From: Spiroplasma sp. SV19
GTDB lineage: Bacteria > Bacillota_I > Bacilli_A > Mycoplasmatales > Mycoplasmataceae
Length of the DNA: 64,000 bases
Reading direction: 5' to 3'
Assembly: GCF_030060925.1 (NCBI RefSeq)
Contig: NZ_CP045455.1
Span: forward strand, 186,001-250,000
How positions within the stretch are numbered: position 1 is the stretch's first letter; each line of letters starts with the position of its first letter. A program made the position numbers and the translations under genes. The notes below the pieces were generated by a model that did no database searches, was not told the origin of the DNA, and saw nothing but the letters and a program-made list of their open reading frames with translations. Below are positions 4,903-26,220 of this stretch, piece after piece.

Positions 4903-6507
4903 ATGAAGGAAATAGTTGTAAAAGAGCGTAAAGCAATTGATGCTACAAAACCATTAGTTGAAGTAATTGATATTACGAAAAAGTATAAAAATAAAGTTGC
5001 TTTAAATAATGTTAATCTAGTTATTAATCCTGGTGATCGTATTGGGGTTATTGGTGCTAATGGAAGTGGAAAATCAACATTAAGTGAAATTATTGGTGGG
5101 ATTCGACAAGCAACAACTGGAAAAGTAGTTCGCCAAGAAAACTTAACAATTGGTCTTCAGTTTCAAGAGTCAAAATATCCAATTGGAATTTCAGTTATGG
5201 ATATGATTAAATATTATTTAAATACTTTTAATATTCCAATGACTGATAACCAGTTGCGTGAATTATTACGGACATATCAACTAATTGGAATGGAAGCCAA
5301 ATTTGTGGAAGGGCTTTCTGGAGGACAACAACAACGGTTAAATATCTTATTGTCAGTGATTCATGACCCAGATTTAGTTATTTTAGATGAAATTTCAACT
5401 GGGTTAGATATTGAGGTTCGTTCTGAAATTTTTCATTTTTTACGTGAAAATATTGTTGAAAAAGGAAAAGCAATGTTCTTAGTAACTCACATGATGAGTG
5501 AAGTTGAAGAATTTTGTGAAAAATATATTTATGTTCATAATGGTGAAATTAAAGAAGCAGGAATGGTACAAGACATTGTTAAAAAATATGGTTCAGTTCA
5601 TAACTTTACTTGGCAAATGTTTGAGCAAAACAAGAAAACTGATTTAGATCAGCAATTTCAAAAAATGGTTAAACAAAGTAAACAAAGTACCCGAATAAAT
5701 AAAGTTGATAAATGAATTTGTGATGGGCGTGTTCGTGGTAAAAACAAACCATTAATTGATTTAATGTTAAAATATTATTATAAAGGTTTTTTTGTTCCAT
5801 TCTTTTTAATTGTATATCCTATTTTACTATTATTTTTAAACGGGTTTGCTTTTAAACAATTAAATAACAATCCAGTGCAAAGTATTCATACTTTAGTTGG
5901 TTCAATTGCAATGGTCCAAGCAATGTCAGTTGGAATCTTTATTATTCCACAAACTATTTTAGAGTTTAAAAATAGTGTTTTAATGAAGCGAATTGGAGCT
6001 ACAAATATTAAACCAGTTTTCTTTGTATTGTCAGTAATGTTAGTTGGGTTAATCTTTATTATTGTATCGTTTTTATGAACATTATTATGAGCGGGGATTT
6101 TCTTTGGGCCAAGTTTTGGCTGAAAAGAAATTGCTGCACCAAATCACTTTGGACCAGCAATTCCGTTTGTTGTTTTAGTTTTTATTTCCACAATTTCATT
6201 AGGAATGATGTTATCTTCAGTCTTTAAATCAACAACATCATTTATTGCTGGATCAAATGTTATTTTTATGCCAATTGCCTTCTTAAGTGGGGCTTTTATT
6301 CCAGCAGAATTAATTAATGGTAGTGATGTCTTAAAGTATGTTACTTATATTAATCCTTTTAAATATACAATGGATCCGTTCTTAAAAGCATGAAGTGGAC
6401 AAGAATTTGTCTTTACATCAACTTATGGGATTTATCTAGGAGTTTCGTTAGGACTAATTGGTGTGTATATTGGAATTGCTGGTTGAAAACTACGTTGACA
6501 AGCATAA
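4903..6507 (+). CDS. Fused ABC ATPase/ABC-2 type permease, copy 1
   Basis: 534 residues in one code-4 frame. Residues ~18-245 are an ABC ATPase: Walker A GANGSGKST (~53-61), signature LSGGQQQR (~141-148), Walker B LVILDEIST (~159-167), H-loop VTHMMSE. A linker with many charged residues leads at ~280 into an ABC-2 permease with about six membrane segments (first one from VPFFLIVYPILLLF) and the family-typical FMPIAFLSGAFIP stretch. ATPase and permease in one chain form a half transporter, probably a homodimeric exporter of unknown substrate in the cell membrane. It is a tandem duplicate of the gene at 6783. Expression is likely tied to the poly-T promoter module upstream. Confidence 0.88.
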
Positions 6508-6510
6508 TTT

Positions 6511-6548
6511 AGAAAAATTTTTTTGGTTCAACCCCACAGGATTTTTCT
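6511..6548 (+). terminator. Weak hairpin after ABC copy 1
   Basis: AGAAAAAT (6511-6518) and ATTTTTCT (6541-6548) could pair around a 22-base loop. The stem is short and A/T only, so this is a weak candidate. The remaining sequence up to 6690 shows no gene. Confidence 0.3.
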
Positions 6549-6689
6549 AGTAATTATTAGATAGATAAAAAGGCCTTTATCGAAATAGGTTTTGGTATTT
6601 AAACGATTCATTTCGTAAGATTCCTTTATATCAAATTATTTGTAATAAAATTAAATTTGTAATAATAATTTGTTAAAAGCATGGAAATG

Positions 6690-6745
6690 TTTTTTTTTTT
6701 TTTTTTTTTTTTTATTTAGATAAAATAAACAAGTGTATTTATTAA
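6690..6745 (+). promoter_or_regulatory. Poly-T tract (T24) and promoter of ABC copy 2
   Basis: Twenty-four T from 6690 to 6713, then a near copy of the module before copy 1: TAGATA (6717-6722) as -35, 17 bases, TATTAA (6740-6745) as -10. The region from GATAAAATAAAC to ATTAAATAAATAT is nearly the same in both copies, so the promoter was part of the duplication, while tract length differs (20 and 24). Confidence 0.6.
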
Positions 6746-6782
6746 TTAACATTAAATAAATATCACTAGCAAAGGATAACAT

Positions 6783-8387
6783 ATGAAGCAAATAGTTGTA
6801 AAAGAGCGTGAAGCAATTGATACTACGAAACCATTAGTTAAAGTAATTAATGTTACAAAAAAGTATAAAAGTAAAATTGCTTTAAATAATATTAATTTAG
6901 TTATTAATTCTGGTGATCGTATTGGGATTATTGGTGCTAATGGTAGTGGGAAGTCAACATTAAGTGAAATTATTGGTGGGATTCGACAAGCAACAACTGG
7001 AAAAGTAGTTCGCCAAGAAAACTTAACAATTGGTCTTCAGTTTCAAGAGTCAAGATATCCAATTGGAATTTCAGTTATGGATATGATTAAGTATTATTTA
7101 AATACTTTTAGTATTGCAATGACTGATAATCAGTTGCGCGAATTATTACGGACATATCAATTAATTGGAATGGAAAATAAATTTGTGGAAAGACTTTCTG
7201 GGGGACAACAACAGCGATTAAATATCTTGTTGTCAGTAGTTCATAATCCAGATTTAGTGATTTTAGATGAAATTTCAACTGGGTTAGATATTGAGGTTCG
7301 TTCTGAAATTTTTCATTTTTTACGAGAGAACATTGTTGAAAAAGGAAAAACAATGATTTTAGTAACCCATATGATGAGTGAAATTGAAGAATTTTGTGAA
7401 AAATATATTTATGTTCATAATGGTGAAATTAAAGAAGCGGGAATGGTGCAAGACATTATTAAAAAATATGGTTCAGTTCATAACTTTACTTGGCAAATGT
7501 TTGAGCAAAACAAGAAAACTGATTTAGATCAGCAATTTCGAAAAATGGTCAAGCAAAGCAGAGAAAGCACCCGGGTAAATAAAGTTGATAAGTGAATTTG
7601 TGATGGGCGTGTTCGTGGTAAAAACAAACCATTAATTGATTTAATTCTAAAATATTACTATAAGGGTTTTTTTGTGCCAATCTTTTTAATTGTATATCCT
7701 ATTTTATTATTATTTTTAAGCGGATTTGCTTTTAAACAATTAAATAATAATCCAGTGCAAAGTATTCATACTTTAGTTGGTTCAATTGCAATGGTCCAAG
7801 CAATGTCAGTTGGAATCTTTATTATTCCAGAAACTATTTTAGAGTTTAAAAATAGTGTTTTAATGAAACGAATTGGGGCCACAAATATTAAACCAGTTTT
7901 CTTTGTATTGTCAGTAATGCTAGTTGGATTAGTCTTTATTATTACTTCGTTTTTATGAACATTATTATGAGCGGGGATTTTCTTTGGGCAAAGTTTTGGT
8001 TGAAAAGAAATTGCTGCGCCAAATCATTTTGGACCAGCAATTCCGTTTGTTGTCTTAGTTTTTATTTCAACCCTTTCATTAGGATTGATGTTAGCTTCAG
8101 TTTTTAAATCAACAACAGCATTTATTGCTGCTTCAAATATCATTTTTATGCCAATTGCCTTATTAAGTGGAACTTTTATTCCTGCAGAATTAATCAACGC
8201 TAGTAATGTTTTAAAGTATGTTACTTATGTAAATCCATTTAAATACACAATGGATCCGTTCTTAAAAGCATGAAGTGGCCAAGAGTTCGTTTTTACATCG
8301 ACTTATGGTGTTTATCTAGGGGTTTCATTAGGATTAATTGGCATGTATATTGGAATTGCTGGTTGAAAACTACGTTGACAAGCATAA
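6783..8387 (+). CDS. Fused ABC ATPase/ABC-2 type permease, copy 2
   Basis: 534 residues, the same length and domain order as the product at 4903: ATPase with Walker A GANGSGKST, signature LSGGQQQR, Walker B LVILDEIST, then an ABC-2 permease half. Most differences are conservative or silent and spread over the whole gene (for example R for G just before the signature: VERLSGGQ against VEGLSGGQ), so both copies seem to be under selection as functional proteins. The pair could act as homodimers or as a heterodimer. The leader before the ATG (AAAGGATAACAT) differs from that of copy 1. Confidence 0.88.
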
Positions 8388-12276: not shown

Positions 12277-13905
<1,629 letters not shown>

Positions 13906-13927
13906 GAAACAACAATTTTATTTAAAG

Positions 13928-13983
13928 AAAAACAAGTTTCACTTGTTTTTTTTTTTTTTTTTATTAAAATAAAAAAGTATTTA
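13928..13983 (+). terminator. groEL terminator overlapping poly-T (T17) promoter module
   Basis: AAAAACAAG (13928-13936), 5-base loop, CTTGTTTTT (13942-13950); the T run continues to 13962 (17 T). Directly after it TTATTAAAATAAAAAAGTAT follows, which aligns closely with the TTGATAAAATAAACAAG-YG-TATTTATT module before both ABC copies. The tract therefore seems to serve as terminator tail for groEL and as part of the promoter for the operon starting at 14017. Confidence 0.6.
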
Positions 13984-14016: not shown

Positions 14017-15538
14017 ATGAGAAAAATATTAAGTTTTTTTGCTATCTCAACTATTGCGGTTGGAAATAGCATACCGTTATTAGCTTGTCATCCTAAAGGT
14101 GGCAATAATAACAATAATGATATTCCGGAGAAACTTCGTAATATGATTAATACAACAGGATTATTGACTAAAATTACCTTATTAGCCCGTCATGAAAATT
14201 TAAATTTTAATGCAAGTGAACTTGTGCGAAGTTTATATGCTCCAGCAGCATATTGAAAATCAATCCCAAGTATTTACACTTACAATAATCAAAAAATTAA
14301 TTTAGCAAAATTAATCCAAGATTTTAACAACAATTACAATAAAATGATTGCCCACACAAAAAATGCTGATCCTAAGTCAATCCGTGAACAATTATTGCCA
14401 CAATATTATATTGGAATGTATGATAATACTTATTATCGCGATTTTCTTACTAATGGTTTTTTTGACCCTGCAAAACAGCAAATTGACCCTAATCGGAGTG
14501 AACTATTAGGTTATAACTATGATATGGGTGCTTTGTCAACTTTAATGAATAATGTGGGAATTAAGTTTTGAATTCCAGCAACGCGTGCTTTTTATGTTAG
14601 TTATCCCGCGGGTGGAATGGGGTTATCAAGCAATCCTTTCTATTGATTTAGCTAAAAAAATTAAAACTGCAATTTTGTGAGCTTCTGAACAAGCACAAAA
14701 AACAAGTTTACAACAATTACTAGACATTTTATTAGCTTTACAAGGTGATAAAGTTAATTTTAAATTTACTTTATCAAATATTTTCTTTGATTTAACAGAC
14801 TTAATTAAAACTTTAACTAGTGATAATGATATTTTAACAACTTTAAGTGGTTATCAAAACCTGGCAAATTCATTTGAAGAGTTAACAACAACTAATTTAA
14901 ACAAGGTTTTAAAAACAATGGGATGAAATAAAGAAACAAGCAAGTTTGAAAAAAACTCATTATTACAACATTTATTAGTTGCTATTTCTGATCCAAACGC
15001 CATTGCATATCAAGATTATAATTACTTATTCTTTAATAGTAATAGTCCTTTTTTTGCAGGTGTTAATAATGTTATGAAAACTTTACATGAAAATGTATTA
15101 CAATATGTTGTTGATGATAAATATTGAAAAGTAAGTAATCCGCAATATACCCAAAAAGTAACTGGAGCCGAAGAACGTTTATCATATGATTTTGAATATA
15201 GTGGTCCTGGTGATAGTTCAGTAACAAAAGTATATACTGAAAGCCATACAAATCAAATTAATGTGAATGATCAATTTTATGATGATCATTACAATCCAAA
15301 ACAATTTTATAGTGTGGATAATAAACAAGAAAACATTGCATATAGTGGGTTAGGATTATCAGATAATTTAAAACCAGTTAGTCATAAATATCATATTGAA
15401 TGAACTAATGTTGGTAATTTAGAACAACCAATGTGAATTATTACAAAAATTGATAGTTATGTTCGCTCAGGGGAAGTTACGAATGGAATCGGGTCAACTC
15501 AAAGTGGCGCATGAAGACAAATTTATTTCTTGTATTAA
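14017..15538 (+). pseudogene. Lipoprotein gene with frameshift
   Basis: ATG 14017 begins a lipoprotein signal (MRKILSFFAISTIAVGNSIP) with LLAC lipobox and Asn-rich spacer. The frame runs to TAA 14653, but from 14612 another frame takes over and stays open, with in-frame TGA tryptophans, to TAA 15536. Joining them near 14608-14616 (a GCGGGTGG stretch) gives about 506 residues. Either a one-base indel has broken the gene or the base call is wrong there. The downstream half is rich in Asn, Thr and Tyr, like extracellular beta proteins. First gene of the 14-24 kb surface cluster; function unknown. Confidence 0.75.
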
Positions 15539-15568
15539 TTAATCAAAAAATATGGAGGAAGTTTATAA

Positions 15569-17710
15569 ATGTTTAAAAAAATTTCAATGTCATTAATTTT
15601 ATTCTTAACAACTTTTACTGCCATAGTAGCAATTGTTTTATTTGTGAAAAAAGATAATTTTATGCGAAGTGTTTGATTAGAGGGTTGTGAGCCAATAAAA
15701 CAGAATCAAAACAAAGATAAAACTCCTTATGCTCACACTTTTTTTGGGAGTCAACATGATAATTATGCTTTGTATCAGCCAAATGAATTGAGCAATGATT
15801 TAAAAAATGCTAAGTTTTATGGTAATTTAGAAAATTATAATAATTGTGTTAATTCTAATGTTAATTTGCAATTATGGAAACAAGATTTTATTAATACACA
15901 ATTAGTTGTTAAAACAAATAACTATGATATTACTAATCTAACAGCAACTGTTACTAATGCTGCTGAATTAGCAAAAAATAATCTAACAGTAGAGGTTGGT
16001 TTTAATCGTTTTATTTATGCTTCATATTCGTTAACAAGTCAACGAATTCCGAATCCATATGGAATTAACGAGAAATTATTAGTTCCTGATGCAATTACTA
16101 CAAATTCAGTTGAAAAAAATGCTTATAAGAATAAAGTCTATATTTTGTGAATTAAAATTATGAGTTTTAAAGATAAAGTTGTTGCTAATCCAGGAAATCA
16201 TACTGTTCAAATACAGTTAACTGGAGATGTTCCAGGGACAAAGCAAACTAATGTTGTTTTAAGTGAAAATGAAATTCAAGTTAAAGTTGCTGATTTATTA
16301 TTGCCAGCAGATCAAAAAAAATCTGATTTTGATGTTTATTCATTTTTTGGTTGAAGTGCTGCTTACTATAATAATTATCAAGTTCCAAATATTATTAAAA
16401 ACAAATATGATAATATTGAATACATTGATTATAATTGAGAACGTTATTGAGAACCAGAAAATAAATATTTACATGATGTCTTAGGAATGGATTATTTTCA
16501 AAGTTCAATTTCATTAAATGAACGTCAAAGTACTGAATGACATAATAATTGATTGGATGGAAATAAGGTTCAAACTTTTTTAGCATGACGTTATACTCAA
16601 CAAAAAGGGTTATACATTGCTGATGAAGATTGAAAAGCATGGGATTATTATATGAATAAAATGGCAGAAGTAGGTTATACAAAGGCACTTCTAAGTGGAT
16701 GACAAGCTGCTTGAAATACAACTTATAAAACTAATAGTGTTTGAGATGAAGATAAACAAGACTATATGCAAATTAGTATGAATATGTATGTTGAGGATGG
16801 TGTTAAAAATAACGAATGATTTTTACAACAATTATTGAATCATATTAAAACAGTTAAGCCAAAATGAGCACAAACAGTTACACCATATCTTTATATTGAT
16901 GAATTACCTGGTTCAGCAATTAACAAATATTTAGCATTAATTCAAAAATATGACCCTAACCGAGACTATATTAAATTAGCAGCTTGTGACTGAGAACGAG
17001 ATATTGATTATAATGACCCAGCAACGTATCAAGTTGATATTTTACATATTTATTTTTTAGATATTTATAATGAAGAAAATAGTAAATTTATGAACTTAGT
17101 AAAACAACGTAATGAAAACGGATATATTACGGGGCAGTATTCATTAGATGCTGATAATACGTTTAATTTAGTTCGTTCAGAGCCGGGGGTAAGTTCTTAC
17201 ATTCAATTAGCTTTATTAAAAGAAAATGCACCACATTATATGCGCTATCTTTTAAATGGATGAACCGAAACAGCATATTGATCAGCGGATTATGATGAAC
17301 ATACGGGTTTAATTTATATTGCTGGAGATACCATGTTTGCTTATCCATCAATTGCCAATCCCGATCCAAACAATCATAATAAAGTTCCATTCAATCCTTC
17401 AACACGATTAGATGCAATTGCTTATGGAGTTAATATGAATAATAAAATTATGTATTTAAAAAAATTAAATTTATTATCAGATTATACAACAATGATGTCA
17501 TATGTTAATAGTAATGTTAAATTAAGTAAACCAACTAGCCATAGTAAGTTTAATTTTAATTACAATGCATTAACAGCAGAAAGCAATATTAAAATTTCAA
17601 ACTCATTTTTATATCGCTTTTTAACACGAAATAATATTGATGAAGTGATGGTTGTTAAAACATTTGAAAATATTATTAATAAAGTTGTAACAACATATTT
17701 AGGAGGTTAA
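15569..17710 (+). CDS. Membrane-anchored GH123/DUF4091-like glycosidase
   Basis: 713 residues, many TGA tryptophans. An N-terminal hydrophobic helix (ISMSLILFLTTFTAIVAIVLF) anchors the protein with the bulk outside. The C-terminal half resembles DUF4091/GH123: a strand ending in a D-E pair (YLYIDELPGS, near residue 447) that would be the catalytic pair, WTETAYWSADY, and the terminal stretch GDTMFAYPS ... STRLDAIAYGV, which matches the family's YP ... PSIRLEAIRDG ending. Known GH123 enzymes cleave beta-linked GalNAc by substrate-assisted catalysis. Here the target could be host glycans; this is inference. It starts 30 bases after the lipoprotein and ends 1 base before the next ATG. Confidence 0.65.
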
Positions 17711-17711
17711 G

Positions 17712-18206
17712 ATGGTTCCATTTTATTTAGTTATTCTTGAAATTTTTATTTATTTATCATTTGCAATTTGACTTATTGGAATAATATATTTGATTTATGG
17801 TTATTGTCAAAGTTTCCTTTGTAAAGAACGAACTATATCGTGAATTTTTTTTGGAGTTAATGTTGCAACAACATTAATACTGTTAATCTTAGTAATTTTA
17901 TCGTTTTTAACAATTTTTAAACCAATTATTTTTGGTAACGGTGACATTTCTAACGAATCAACATTATTAAATATTGCTTATTTTGGAATAAGTACGTTAA
18001 TTTTAGCAATATTATGAATTATTTACTTAAGTAGTTGTTCAATCTATTTTACAATTTATCAAAAAAATGGTCGACTTTATTTATTTGGTAGTTATTTTGA
18101 TCAAAATAAAAATAAAAAAATCATTGCAAACAAACATCTTTTAATTTATCGAAATAAAATTTTTTTACAATTATTTTTCGTTTTTCTAAAACTTATCAAT
18201 ATTTAA
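17712..18206 (+). CDS. Small membrane protein
   Basis: 164 residues. ATG 17712 immediately follows the previous stop; AGGAGG lies in the end of the upstream gene. Three hydrophobic segments are visible (YLVILEIFIYLSFAIWLIGII, ATTLILLILVILSFLTIF, YFGISTLILAILWIIYLS), followed by a basic C-terminal tail. No family recognised. Tight spacing argues for a shared job with the glycosidase and the FtsX-type permease downstream. Confidence 0.7.
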
Positions 18207-18260
18207 TTGCTAAGAAAAAATAAAAAAGCATTATTATTTTTAACGAAAGAGGTCAAAAAA

Positions 18261-21200
18261 ATGTGATTATTGTTAAAACAAGGAATTTTAAATACTTTTA
18301 AAAATAAAGCACAAGTTTTTATTTTTGTTATTTTAATTGTTTTAACAGCACTTTTTTCAACTGTTTGTTGAGTTTCTTTTGATCGATTACAAAAAGCAAA
18401 CAGAACAATGGGATATGGAACATTAAATATTAATTATAACTATAATTATATTTCAACTAATTATGAAGCAAATAATCAGCAAACAATTACACCATGGTTT
18501 GCTTTTGATGTTGATTATGCTGGTATTGGGAATGGTTTTTTTGAAAAAAACTATGGTACTTTGACAATTGGTGGTTCAAATGATGTGCTAAAGCCATTTG
18601 ATTTAGGAACTGGTTTAAAAGGTGAAAAATATCAATTTAAAATTGATGGAAACCAATTCCAAATTGAAAAAAGTGGTCATTGAGTACCATTTGAAAATGT
18701 TTTATTAGATTACAATGCTATTAATTTGACTAATCAAAATGTTTTAACAGGTGAATTTTCACAACTGTATCGGTTCAATTTTAATGCTTATTCATTTCAA
18801 AAATCTTTGTTAGGACAATTATACAATCGTTTTATTTTTAATAATTCTGTTGATTCAACTCTTAAAATGCAGGCAATTAATTTAGTAAAACGTTATATGC
18901 ATTTTATTTTAGAGTCACGGTTAACTTATTTAGTGTATAAAAACATTGAAACTTATGCATTAAAAAATAATACGACAGATATTGACCTTTTAAATCAATT
19001 TATTAATGGAACAAACTTAGGCGAGCATTGACAAACAAAAAATTTGGGAGTTGATAATCCTGGTAAAAATGTTGCTCGTGCTGATCGAATTTTTTTAACA
19101 CCAACAGTAGCAACCGATAAATATTGGGGAATGCGAGGAACATTAGGATTCCCAATTTATGATCCAAATAATACTTTGGGGTTAAAAGAACTTGATTGTC
19201 AAAATAGTACTGGTTGTACTGGAGTAGAAAATTATCGTTATTTTTTAACTGATACTAAATATCATAATATTGCCCAACTTTTAAATGATAAAAATGACCA
19301 TAGTAATGTTACTAAAAACTTTTTACTAAATGGTAGTTATAAAGTTCGCAATTTAAGTACATATGATTTTTTTGGTCAGTATGATTATAATAATAAATTT
19401 ATTAATAATGATTTTTTAACAACTTATCAAGATATGTTGGGAATGATTAGTAATTTTCAAGTTGTTAACCGTAATCAAGCAATTGCTTGAACAACTGATG
19501 GAAAAAAATATAAATTCATTGATTGAACACAACCATATAATTCAGGACAATTAAAAATCTTACAAAAATCAAAATGATTTGATCGTGGTTTAAATGAAAT
19601 GGTTGATACAGCAATTGTCTTGCCACAATATTTTAAAGCAAATCATTTACGCTTTGATGATACGATTTTAGTTAATCAACTGAAACTTTATATTGAAGCC
19701 GTTGGGGGTGATACCCAAAATATTTATCCAACCATTTATGATACTGATTTTTTACCTGATGCGAAGAATGAGTCAATTATTTATGTTCATCCGCAAATGT
19801 TTAATCGTTTATTTGGTTATAATAACGAAGGGTTTACTACACAACAATATCAAGATGTTAGTACAGTTCAATTAACATATCATGGTGCTAATCAGAACAA
19901 AATGGAAACTGATTTAAATTATTATCGTGTTTACTTAGCTGATAATATTAATCGTTTAGGAAAAACAACTGAAGCAATTTTTCAAAATAAAACAGATGTT
20001 GTTAATAATGTTAATTTTACTAAATTTGGTGCGAATCAATTAGTTAATAATCGTTATCAATTGTTAAATAATGCTATTAAAATTTATTATTTAGTAACAA
20101 TTGGGATTATTCTCTTTTTTGCCATAATTGTTATGATTATTTTGTTTATTCAATTAAAAAGTATGATTGAAAAACAACGAAGTCAAATTGGAATTTTAAA
20201 AGCAAATGGTTATAATAATTTTAAAATTTCCTTGTCTTATGTGATGTATTTCTTAACAGCCTTAATAATAGCTACTCCAATTGGATGATTACTTGGTCTA
20301 GGATTACAAGTTCCAATTATTAACTTATTTGGGCAATATTTTGTGTTACCAAGTACGTTTGTTGTTAACTGACAAGTACTATTATTATTTTTCCTTGTTG
20401 GTGGAAGTATTATTTTTATTCTTGTTGTTATTGAATGTAGTATTATATTAGGCCGGGAAGTATTAGCATTAATAAATCCAAATCGTGATTTTAAACCTAA
20501 CAAATTAATTAGCCAGTTATCATTACGCTTTAGCAATCGATCATTTAAATCCCGCTTTCGATTAGTGTTATTAGGAGCGAGTTGAAAAGCAGTCATTATG
20601 TTTTTAATAACAACTTTTATTGCTACTGGAACAATTACCTTAGCGGCTTTGGTGCCAAATAGTATTAAAACTTTAAGTCAACAGTATTATCAAAATTTAA
20701 ATTATGCTAATGAATTAAATTATCAAAATGTTATTTATAATAATCCATTAAGTCGTTATGAACTCTATGATAGTCCTAGTGAAGATGTACCAGATTATGG
20801 TGGGGTTAATGATCCAATTTATCAAAAGTTGGAAAATGTTCCAATTGCACCATATGTCTATGCCCGGGGTGTGGATAACACAACAAAATGAATTACTTTA
20901 CAAGAATTAGCAACCAACCCTAATTACAGCCCATCTTATCCTTCGTTTATTGTTAATATGTTAGTGCAAAATATGACAGTCTTTAAAGGAAGCAATATTT
21001 CAGTTGGATTATTACGTTATTTATATGATTTACCAATTGATAGTAATATTAAAAATCGAGTTGATAATCAATTATCATTAGTAACATGTACTTTTTTACC
21101 ACAATTATTTGGACAATTGCCAGTTTCTAACTCAGAAGCAGCAGGGACAACGTGACATAAATGGTCATATTGTATTGAACAAGCAACTAACACAATTTTA

Positions 21201-22724
21201 CCAAGTGTTATTAAGGAAAAATGAGCAGCAAATGAAAAATATCAGTTGCGTTTTAACTTTGGGTTTAACTCGATGGCTTATGATCAAAACACAGATAGTT
21301 TATTTACTGGTTTTGATACAAAAATCACAGCTGTTAATGGAATTATTCGTGATAGTACAAAAAATCAAATTTCATCATATGGTCTTGATCTTAATGCTAA
21401 TCAAGTTGTTTTTACAAATGAGTTAAAAACCAAATTACAAAAATCTTCTTCAAATCAAGACAAAATAATTCCAATTGCAATTAATGATTCGACGGCAGTA
21501 AAATATAATTTAAGAGTAAATGATATTATTAATTTCTACACCGATCAACCACGATTACAATATTTAGGTAAAGATCAACAATATTATGATATTAATCCAG
21601 AATGATGAACTTATCAAAATGGTAATGTTAAAAATGATCCTTGAACTTTAAATTTATCTCATTTAACAAATTCTTTATTAACAGGAACTAATAATGATGA
21701 TTGAGGAACAAATGTTAATCAACCGTATGCGTCAATTAGCGGTTTAAAATTAAATTTACCAGTTAATATGATTGATGCAAATGTTTGAACTCAAAATAAA
21801 ATTGATATTAATCCAGAAAGTGGCCCTACCAAAGTTGATTTGTTAAATAATAAAGTTACTAAAATTGAACAAAATAATTATGTCATTGGAGCTTATGATT
21901 TAAATTTTGATCATCCTTTAAAATCGCTGATTGATTTAGTAAATGGTGGCTTTGCCAAAAATTGATATAGTCAAGCCCTGAAATTAGGATTATTACGAGT
22001 AACAACAGCTGGTTTTAATGTTTTATCTAATTATCAATTTAAAGTGGTTGGAATTCAGCATTCTTATGACCAAGCTCGGATCTTTTTAGAACAAAAATTA
22101 GCAAATCAAGTTCTTGGTTATCAAAACAGTCCCCAATGATTTAATGGTAAATATACGAAAGCAATTCAACCAAGTGATCAATTTCAACGCTATGTTTTAT
22201 CTTCTACGAGTGCTGATAACTCATTAAGTGATGGTTTATCTTTTTTCAGTTCAGCAGTTGGGAAAGTTGATTATTTATATAATAAAAAACAAGTTGTTAA
22301 TCAACTAAGTTATTTTACAACTATATTAGCAGGAGCATTAGTGTCAATTATTATTTTAACAGCAGTTATTATTATCTTCTTAGTAACAGATGTTTTTATG
22401 GAGCGATATACCAAATTTATTGCTTTAATGCGGGTTTTTGGTTATCACCGTGGCGAAATTAATAGTATGACCTTAGCAATTTTTATTCCTTTTGCATTTT
22501 TAGGTTGATTATTAGGTTTTTTCCTAGTTTGAACAACTGTTTATTTTGCGGTTAAAATGGGATTGCAAACGATTAGTTTGCCATTAAGTTTACCAATGCC
22601 ATGGTTATTATTTATTGCTATCTTTGGAATTATTAGTTTTATTTTTGCCTTAACTTTTGTTTTATCAACAAGAAAAATTAACCAGTTACCAATTCAAACA
22701 ATTGTCACATTAAGTGATGAATAG
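18261..22724 (+). CDS. Large FtsX-type ABC permease
   Basis: 1487 residues in one code-4 frame. One membrane helix at ~17-40, a very large Asn/Tyr-rich extracellular domain, a first FtsX block at ~610-800 (four helices and the typical cytoplasmic loop QIGILKANGYNNFKI), a second extracellular domain, and a last FtsX block of three helices at ~1350-1485 (FIALMRVFGYHRGEI loop). This is the duplicated FtsX layout of MacB/LolE-like permeases, which work with a separate ATPase in moving lipoproteins or peptides or in mechanotransmission. No ATPase lies in this cluster, so it must use one encoded elsewhere. It precedes a lipoprotein gene by 12 bases. Confidence 0.85.
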
Positions 22725-22736
22725 GAGACAAAATTA

Positions 22737-23957
22737 ATGAAAAAAATATGAATAATTTTAACAGTTGGTATATTAATGCTAGGATTACCTTCAACATTAA
22801 TAAGTTGTGCAACAAATGATAATTTATATCCGGAACAAAAAGATACATTAGCATCAGTGGTACAAAAAATTACGAATACTAGTAAGACATACCAAGAAAT
22901 TGAAACTAATAATAATAAAATAACATTAGCGGAAGGCAAAACTTATGCAGTGAATGCAATTTATAAGGCATTGGGAGGGGATAAAAATATTTATGGTGTT
23001 ACACCTAATAATATTAAAATTACAACTGTTTTAGATCGTGATGGGCAGATTATTGATGATCAGAACTTTTCAGTTGGAATTGTTTTTGAAGTAAAATATG
23101 ATATTAATAATGGTTTTGAATTTTTAACTAATCAATCATTTTGATTATTATTAAAATATTTAGCTCCTGATGAAATCATTAAAAATAATTTAATTTTTAC
23201 AGCAAGTAGTGCTTTTCAAATTACTGATGATACTGTGTTAGGAATTGGTAGTAAAAGTGCAGTTGCAATTGAAAAAACTGCAACTGGTTATCAAACAACA
23301 GATCAAGAATTATTACAATGAGATTGTGATACTGTTAATCACCAAAACTTATTGCAAATTGGACGAATGATATGACCAAAAAATATTAATAAAATTCCAA
23401 ATAATACAATGCGAGTTAATTTTATTCAGCATTATCAAAATGAAAAACAATTATATATGATAACCCAAGAAGTTAATAATGGGCAATTAACCAAACCAAA
23501 ATATAAGGAAGTTAAAGTGCAAGGAAATGACCAATGAAATTTATTAACAGTTGCTTTACTTCAAGTTATTGAAATTCGTAATAAACTGTATGCTGCTGTT
23601 ATTAATCCAGCAGCAGAAAATTTAGATCCAATTTTATTTAATTTACAATATGATGGTACAGATTGAATGTTAGATTTAACAACCCCAACTTTTCCTAATT
23701 TAAAACAAGGTTTTATTCCTGGGGAACAATATTTAATAACGAATTCATTATTTACTGCAAAAGGGGTAACATATGTAATGACTACGCTTGGGAATTTATA
23801 TCAAATTGATTATTTAAATCAAACTTTTTCATTAAAAAAGATTATTAATGAAAAAGAAACAGCCAATAATATTCGCAGTTATATTATTGATGAACAAAAT
23901 AACAAAATGTTTCGAATTAATCATGATCAATTAGAAGAAGTTAATAATATTTATTAA
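22737..23957 (+). CDS. Lipoprotein of the surface cluster
   Basis: 406 residues. The leader ends in LISC (about residue 24). TAGGAG, overlapping the stop of the FtsX-type gene, is its ribosome binding site, so translation is probably coupled. The mature part has repeated beta-like strands (KLYAAVINPA, ILFNLQYDGTDWMLDL, GVTYVMTTLGNLYQIDY) suggestive of a propeller-type fold. It should sit on the outer membrane face next to the permease. Function unknown. Confidence 0.82.
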
Positions 23958-23989
23958 AATTAGTTTAAAAATAAACTAATTTTATTTCT
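23956..23989. terminator. Strong terminator at end of surface cluster
   Basis: AAAATTAGTTTA (23956-23967), AAAA loop, TAAACTAATTTT (23972-23983), then ATTTC. Perfect 12-bp stem starting inside the stop codon. Confidence 0.75.
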
Positions 23990-24037: not shown

Positions 24038-25330
24038 ATGAGTAAAAATATTTATACTGTTAGTGAAGTTAACGCTTATTTAAAAACATCAATTGAACAA
24101 AATCCTAATTTTATTAATATTTCTTTACAAGGTGAAATTTCGAATATTACAAACCATTCATCAGGTCACATTTATTTTACGATTAAAGATGATAAGTCAC
24201 AAATTCGAGCAATTATGTTCGCTTTTAATGCTAAAAACTTACAGTTTAAATTAAAAGAAGGACTAAAAATTGTTGCGACTGGTTCAATTAAAGTTTATGA
24301 GCCGCAGGGAACATACAGTTTACAAGTTGTGACTTTATCGTTACATGGAGTAGGGGATTTGTTTTTAAAATATGAAGCATTAAAACAGGAATTAAGTAAA
24401 AAAGGATGATTTGATCAATCATTAAAAAAACCAATTCCTCAGTTTCCAACTAATATTGGGGTAATCACAGCGCCAACTGGAGCTGCAATTCGTGATATTA
24501 TTACTACAATTCATCGTCGTTTTCCACAAGCCAATATTTATTTATTTCCAAGTTTGGTGCAAGGAGAAGACGCAAAACATGATATTCGCAAAAATATTAA
24601 AGCCGCATTAGCTTTTAAGCCTAAAATTGATACTTTAATTGTTGGCCGTGGTGGTGGTAGCATTGAAGATTTATGAGCTTTTAATGAATTAGAAGTTGTT
24701 GAAGCCATTTTTCAAGCAACAATTCCCGTTATTTCAGCGGTGGGGCATGAAATTGATTTTACTTTATCTGATTTTGTTAGTGATTTAAGAGCACCAACCC
24801 CAACTGCTGCCGCAGAATTAGCAACACCAGATCAAAAAGAATTAATGAATTTTTTAAAGCAACAACAGCGGAGTTTAATAACAACTATTAAAACAAAAGT
24901 TGATAAGTTAGTTGACAAACTAGCAGAATTAAAAAATAGTTATGTCTTAACAAAACCCAAGGCATTGTATACACAACAAGAACATTCCTATCAATTATTA
25001 GTAAAACATTTTAATGTTTGCCAAGAAACTTTTTTCTTAGCAAACAAAAATGTCATTCAAACTTATTATCAAAAGTTAATTACATTAATGCAACAGCAAA
25101 TTGTAGCAATTGAATATTTCAAAAATAATTTATTAAGTAAATTAGATTTATTAAGTCCGTTAAAAACATTAACACGCGGGTATAGTATTACTTATAATAA
25201 TGAGAAAAATGTATTAACATCAATTCAACAAGTAGAGAATAATGATATAATAATGACACGTGTGCAAGATGGAATTATTCAGTCGCTTGTGCAAACAATT
25301 AAGAAGGATGGTGAAGAAAATGACAGATAA
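24038..25330 (+). CDS. xseA: Exodeoxyribonuclease VII large subunit
   Basis: 430 residues, normal length. Degrades single-stranded DNA together with XseB. The N-terminal OB fold ([25 protein letters not shown]) is followed by the catalytic core with [28 protein letters not shown] and [29 protein letters not shown], all classical XseA motifs, then a helical C-terminal region and the final TRGYSI. ATG 24038 follows GGAGGGG; the upstream ATG at 24008 lies before that site. Overlaps xseB by 11 bases. Confidence 0.96.
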
Positions 25331-25547: not shown

Positions 25548-26220
25548 ATGGCAGGACAGATTTTTGAACGAAGTGGCTGAGTTAAAAAAAATAATATTAA
25601 AATTAGAAAAAAATTATTTGAATTAAAATTAAGTCGAGTTGTTTTAAAAGATTTTAAGACATTTGATGAAAAAGATATTCTGATTAAAAATTTTGTGTAT
25701 TTACTACGGTTGAATAATTTTGATGAGCAAGAATATTTTGATAGTATTATTTTAATTAAGTTAGTTTTAATTTATTATCATATGCAATATGTTCAGCATT
25801 CTGGGGTAAAACGAGAAGAAATTCAAATCTTAAAAGTAATTAAGGAATTAGAACAAAAATTTTAATTAATAAAATTAATACTAATTATGAAACAGAAATT
25901 TTTGCTAATATTAACATTTCTGATTTAAAGATTGCAAAATATTATCGTTTTGATTTATTATATAATTTTATTGCAAATATTTTTTATCAACCTTTTATGA
26001 AAAAACAAAATGCTAAATTGTATTTTGATTATGGATACTACCTTGTTTTTTTAATTAATTTAACAGTAATGAAAAACTATTTAAAGATAGTGCTAATGTT
26101 GAAATTTATAAAATTAAATTAGATGTAACAGCTAATTGCCATTATTTAATTGGTGAAATTACACCAATATATTTTAATAATTTTGTGCAACAAATTAATT
26201 ATTTTTTACAAAAATATTAA
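25548..26220 (+). pseudogene. Decayed unknown gene between xseB and dxs
   Basis: ATG 25548 opens a frame of 105 residues to TAA 25863. The neighbouring frame then continues with good coding character (NTNYETEIFANINISDLKIAKYY...) to about 26060, where a second shift leads to KLFKDSANVEIYKIKLDVTANCHYLIGEI and TAA 26218. Two indels, at an A/T-rich stretch near 25855-25863 and near 26055-26070, would restore one protein of about 223 residues. No family recognised. Position between two conserved genes with small gaps suggests it was an operon member. Confidence 0.7.

Follow-up and report, generated by a model that had tools for sequence, protein, structure and literature searches.

A candidate GH123 glycosidase pair and a lipoprotein–giant FtsX pair, probably two separate modules, in a surface gene cluster of Spiroplasma sp. 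SV19

Spiroplasma are wall-less bacteria with very small genomes that live in arthropods, and a closely packed row of surface-protein genes in Spiroplasma sp. SV19 raises the question of whether its members form one machine or units of separate history. The window, the whole stretch of 64,000 nt that was analysed, is part of a 1.457 Mb genome whose nearest named relative found is S. poulsonii MSRO_BK; ORFs were read with code 4, and transmembrane (TM) helices and lipoboxes were called by a simple hydropathy and pattern script. The cluster lies on the + strand between groEL (12292-13905) and xseA (24038-25330), names that were given from sequence by eye. A preliminary description had presented it as an operon of five genes for a lipoprotein, a GH123-like glycosidase, a small membrane protein, a giant FtsX-type permease and a second lipoprotein, with a poly-T promoter module in front and a strong terminator at the end. 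The last four ORFs do follow one another on this strand with gaps of 1, 54 and 12 nt, but the first gene is spread over two frames and has suffered a deletion. The supposed promoter module proved to be the tail of the groEL intrinsic terminator (13924-13965, + strand), a hairpin at 13924-13954 with a T run that directly follows groEL and folds at -10.9 kcal/mol (z = -5.2; none of 200 shuffles folded as well). At the other end, an AT-only hairpin (23955-23984, + strand; -9.7 kcal/mol) fits a terminator and is a candidate for that of the cluster, although it is weaker (z = -3.3); a simple scan for terminator-like and promoter-like sites gave about the same count as expected from shuffles.

The second gene (15569-17710) encodes a 713-aa protein with one N-terminal TM helix, and both the D-E pair and the “YP...R-L-x-A-I” ending that had suggested a GH123 enzyme are present in its sequence. 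The HMM search proposed for it gave no direct single-sequence match: the protein alone retrieved no Pfam family at E<=1, no NCBIfam match and nothing in a PDB search, and it does not match PF13320 above the Pfam cut-off, which is a detection threshold rather than a biological criterion. The family emerges when profiles are compared. Four of 17 aligned relatives match PF13320, the distant members scoring as Pfam GH123_cat (best 5.6e-21), and in a PDB search the profile of the 17-member alignment matches CpNga123 (5fqe) over residues 85-673 at 2e-16. Because a distant lipoprotein version of the glycosidase could carry this signal by itself, the clade of the protein's own type was tested alone. 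Its profile did not find GH123 in the PDB; in profile-profile comparison (hhalign), the own-type family matched two Firmicutes GH123 sequences at 97.4% (E 9.6e-12) and all GH123 sequences collected at 99.9% (E 5.5e-31), each E-value representing one comparison of shallow alignments, and the controls (seven unrelated Spiroplasma families and reversed profiles) reached at most 2.6%. In three alignments and in hhalign, D444-E445 (16898-16903) falls on the catalytic Asp-Glu pair (Asn-Gln in the 5fqg entry), and the two residues are invariant in 17/17 relatives. Thus, the proposed GH123/DUF4091 homology with its catalytic pair is strongly supported, and the 713-aa protein is, as judged from profiles, a homologue belonging to a diverged branch.

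Nine residues are fixed in all GH123 groups, namely D95, W115, the D-E pair, Y392, G427, W431, Y466 and R478 of NgaLy, among which W431 is a substrate-recognition Trp (PMC11087588). According to our own mapping, based on spacing and alignment, seven of the nine are kept in the 713-aa protein (D174, W194, D444, E445, Y524, Y592 and R613), and the Gly and the Trp are replaced in all three alignments (G427 by H556, W431 by Y560). Within the same clade, more distant species vary at D174 (to E) and at W194 (to Y or N). The replacements at H556 and Y560 imply that the specificity or even the activity of the putative glycosidase may differ, and a reader might go further and suppose that catalysis was lost or changed and that the protein serves as a glycan-binding surface adhesin or receptor. 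We consider this unlikely. Even the very distant relatives all retain the D-E pair, Y524 and R613, and nearly all of them Y592, a pattern that a loss of catalysis would not lead one to expect; the low dN/dS speaks in the same direction. An AlphaFold model computed from only two sequences had a pLDDT of 30, too low to inform on the beta-sandwich and (beta/alpha)8 barrel expected of GH123, and was discarded.

Relatives of the own type occur in 14/320 genomes of the order, all within the same family (Spiroplasmataceae), and three further genomes have only the more distant lipoprotein version. The gene for a 164-aa membrane protein with three TM helices (17712-18206 in the window) recurs directly behind the glycosidase gene (loci L045-L053 and L057), so that the pair is found in the same order across genera of the Spiroplasmataceae. 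At L054 (8436-9790, genome G162) the small gene is still open behind a glycosidase gene that has decayed to fragments. At L058, a 4-TM N-terminal extension of the glycosidase was considered as a possible fusion with the small protein; its hhalign value of 7% exceeds that of the controls (1.1% or less) but is not significant. In the window, the tail of the small gene is frameshifted at a T7 run (18160-18166) that is T8 in both relatives, which changes the last residues and represents either a polymorphism or a sequencing error.

In some species the glycosidase has further neighbours. Upstream of it in L050/L052 are genes for a GH85 lipoprotein and an ABC transporter (GH85 and ABC matches were run on L050), a NagB-type gene follows in L049 and a PTS permease (EII) adjoins in L058; in L050/L051 the glycosidase is immediately preceded by YebC, which had at first been suspected to be NagB. 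GH85 was found in 33/60 genomes of the family, and its association with the glycosidase across these 60 genomes (10/14 versus 23/46) is not significant (p 0.13). The SV19 genome itself (G000) encodes nagA-nagB at 1,283,001-1,284,899. Two lipoproteins of GH85, an endo-beta-N-acetylglucosaminidase family, are also encoded in the SV19 genome (L136:680-3256, G000:C1 about 430.7-433.3 kb; L139:612-3296, about 698.6-701.3 kb), each with an ABC ATPase and a 6-TM protein as direct neighbours. The GH85, NagB and PTS neighbours of the glycosidase, together with the nagA-nagB pair and the GH85 lipoproteins of this genome, point to release and use of N-acetylhexosamine. The same genome further contains a second GH123 operon (G000:C1 about 1,044,358-1,050,214; L164:8358-14214) in the order 383-aa protein, GH123 lipoprotein (735 aa), 394-aa lipoprotein and 423-aa 7-TM protein; this order is the same in G166, G168, G173 and G175 and similar in G182, and the three partners of the enzyme are without a Pfam family.

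The fourth gene (18261-22724) encodes the giant FtsX-type permease of 1487 aa, which is matched by Pfam FtsX in two stretches (6.5e-19; domains at about residues 616-724 and 1360-1476) and consists of two copies of a TM helix, an extracytoplasmic domain of about 560 aa and 3-4 TM helices; the two halves are homologous (hhalign 95.7%). Its giant relatives (1413-1503 aa) nearly always follow a lipoprotein of about 730-775 aa from the sequence cluster that also contains lipoprotein 1 of the window, and a 5-7-TM protein often precedes them as well. Three copies of the lipoprotein-FtsX pair are present in the SV19 genome (the cluster, L063 and L065), and further pairs occur in other species (L064, L072, L073 and L075-L078; L074 differs in order). 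Among the other giant FtsX proteins, that of L064 in G166 is the closest (about 38-41% identical). At that locus (5174-7479), the lipoprotein gene directly before the permease is likewise broken, in this case into three pieces, with a second intact copy upstream. The cluster contains no ATPase gene, as had been reported; this absence is the rule for the giant FtsX type in this genome rather than a special feature, and no adjacent LolD-type ATPase was found at any lipoprotein-giant FtsX pair examined. The two LolD/MacB-type ATPases that were found each lie beside other FtsX genes, and in the eight further ATPase clusters that were checked, the ATPases are accompanied by permeases or partners of their own.

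Lipoprotein 1 is a pseudogene in the SV19 genome. It is represented by two out-of-frame ORFs (14017-14655 and 14552-15538), whereas its orthologues in L045 and L009 are single intact ORFs of 723/724 aa. The N-terminal piece (14017-14655), with the lipobox ...LLAC, shares 92% identity with residues 1-209 of the 723-aa L045 orthologue, and the C-terminal piece (14648-15538) corresponds, in the other frame, to its residues 428-723 (95% identity over 296 aa), so that residues ~210-428 are missing. The blastn comparison with the L045 and L009 genes places the junction at 14644-14650: window position 14643 corresponds to orthologue gene position 627 and 14651 to 1285, with 7 nt between, which amounts to a net loss of ~650 nt and a shifted frame. 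Both pieces show dN/dS values of 0.08-0.14, equally low as between intact relatives, and the break is therefore either recent or an assembly fault. At the 3′ end of the cluster, the 406-aa lipoprotein 2 (22737-23957) is without a Pfam or NCBIfam family above cut-off, and full relatives occur only in G000, G172 and G173 of 317 genomes.

This damage invites the suggestion that the cluster is a chance assembly of decaying surface genes between groEL and xseA, within which the glycosidase and its small partner are the only functional unit. The frameshifted tail of the small gene would fit, as would a gene after xseB (25548-26217; 224 aa in L045, without a Pfam family) that is split by two frameshifts, and the cluster is absent from the site in the other genomes of the genus that were examined; the closest of these (G165, G167, G168, G170, G171 and G175) have a 5-6-TM gene upstream of xseA instead. 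Against it speak low dN/dS values of 0.08-0.24 across the cluster genes, both halves of lipoprotein 1 included, and an identical gene order in three genomes, and we regard mere chance as rather improbable.

At the opposite extreme, the FtsX permease, energized by an ATPase in trans, might switch the glycosidase mechanically or hand on its product or a lipoprotein, making the whole row one integrated surface machine. The model for this is FtsEX of walled bacteria, by which wall hydrolases are switched. The shared strand, gaps of 1-54 nt, common order in the three genomes and purifying selection are compatible with such integration, as is the position of the second GH123 operon, which has another lipoprotein-FtsX pair at a distance of about 10 kb. 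Against it, the glycosidase and small TM protein have no FtsX with them in G164 or in any of the other genera, lipoprotein-FtsX pairs recur without the glycosidase and, throughout, without an adjacent ATPase, and lipoprotein 1 is broken in SV19 with the rest kept; an integrated machine is thus quite unlikely. Its most specific form, in which the giant FtsX of a wall-less bacterium uses ATP to control or position a GH123 glycosidase outside the cell, seems very improbable to us; if true, FtsX mechanotransmission would be used for trimming host glycans rather than for wall hydrolysis. The neighbourhood survey largely refutes the notion of one co-conserved five-gene set: the complete combination exists only in three close genomes, S. 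poulsonii included, and its two pairs recur separately. The best reading of these comparisons is that two modules of probably separate history came together in a single small lineage. The tight spacing of the genes and the purifying selection on them are compatible with co-expression; nevertheless, a five-gene “machine” should not be entered as a system. Among the papers searched, none was found that links Spiroplasma with GH123 or describes the lipoprotein-giant FtsX module, and the paper on the S. poulsonii variant mentions glycosyl hydrolases only in general.

The explanation that we consider probable is accordingly that of a GH123 surface glycosidase module and an FtsX module standing side by side. 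The first would comprise a GH123-family enzyme held by its one N-terminal membrane helix with the catalytic domains outside, together with the small 3-TM protein, which probably anchors, matures or positions it. By analogy with GH123, the likeliest role of the enzyme is that of a cell-surface beta-N-acetylhexosaminidase: from host glycans it would release beta-linked N-acetylhexosamine, either GalNAc or a sugar closely similar to it. Insect glycans that end in beta-GalNAc, such as LacdiNAc and arthro-series glycolipids, are natural candidate substrates. Catalysis would be substrate-assisted and retaining: D444 would keep the 2-acetamido group in place and E445 would serve as acid/base. The freed sugar may be taken up and used through the NagA/NagB of the same genome. 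The second module, the lipoprotein and the fused-dimer permease, would form a transmembrane device of the MacB/FtsX type (type VII) whose two outer domains are very large and which would need an ATPase supplied in trans. In the S. poulsonii-like lineage, the first module lies between the two genes of the second and the clade-specific lipoprotein was probably added; in SV19, the lipoprotein of the second module has probably been broken recently. Spiroplasma appears to keep a surface hexosaminidase-type set (this GH123 branch, the second GH123 operon and the GH85 lipoproteins) plus nagA/nagB, and foraging on or remodelling of host glycans by an insect endosymbiont is therefore a directly testable idea. 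The branch is likely annotated as hypothetical because Pfam misses it, and the lipoprotein-giant FtsX pair represents a widespread, unnamed surface module.

Compared with known systems, lipoprotein 1 resembles the MOLPALP lipoproteins in its N-terminal signal sequence and in nothing beyond, and its assignment to that family (TIGR04547) was rejected (18.3 bits against a cut-off of 65, residues 1-67 only; no match for the intact orthologue). The 1487-aa protein shares with MacB/FtsX/LolCE-type (type VII) permeases the FtsX C-terminal domains recognized by Pfam and the arrangement TM, outer domain, 3 TM. By contrast, it is a fused dimer with outer domains of ~560 residues and a lipoprotein partner of about 720-775 aa, and it lacks the cognate ATPase gene alongside that would be expected of a type VII ABC transporter. 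The second GH123 operon is similar to the cluster in that a surface GH123 protein is accompanied by membrane-protein and lipoprotein neighbours, and the two enzymes are homologous (hhalign 98.2%); unlike the 713-aa protein, however, its enzyme is lipoprotein-anchored, recognized by Pfam and flanked by the 383-aa, 394-aa lipoprotein and 423-aa 7-TM genes. With the GH123 beta-N-acetylgalactosaminidases CpNga123, BvGH123 and NgaP (PF13320 GH123_cat/DUF4091), the 713-aa protein is homologous over nearly its whole length, sharing the catalytic D-E pair, the DUF4091 Y and R and an aligned N-terminal domain. It differs from them in escaping a single-sequence HMM search, in the replaced equivalents of G427 and W431, in its N-terminal membrane anchor and in the small 3-TM partner that nearly always adjoins it.
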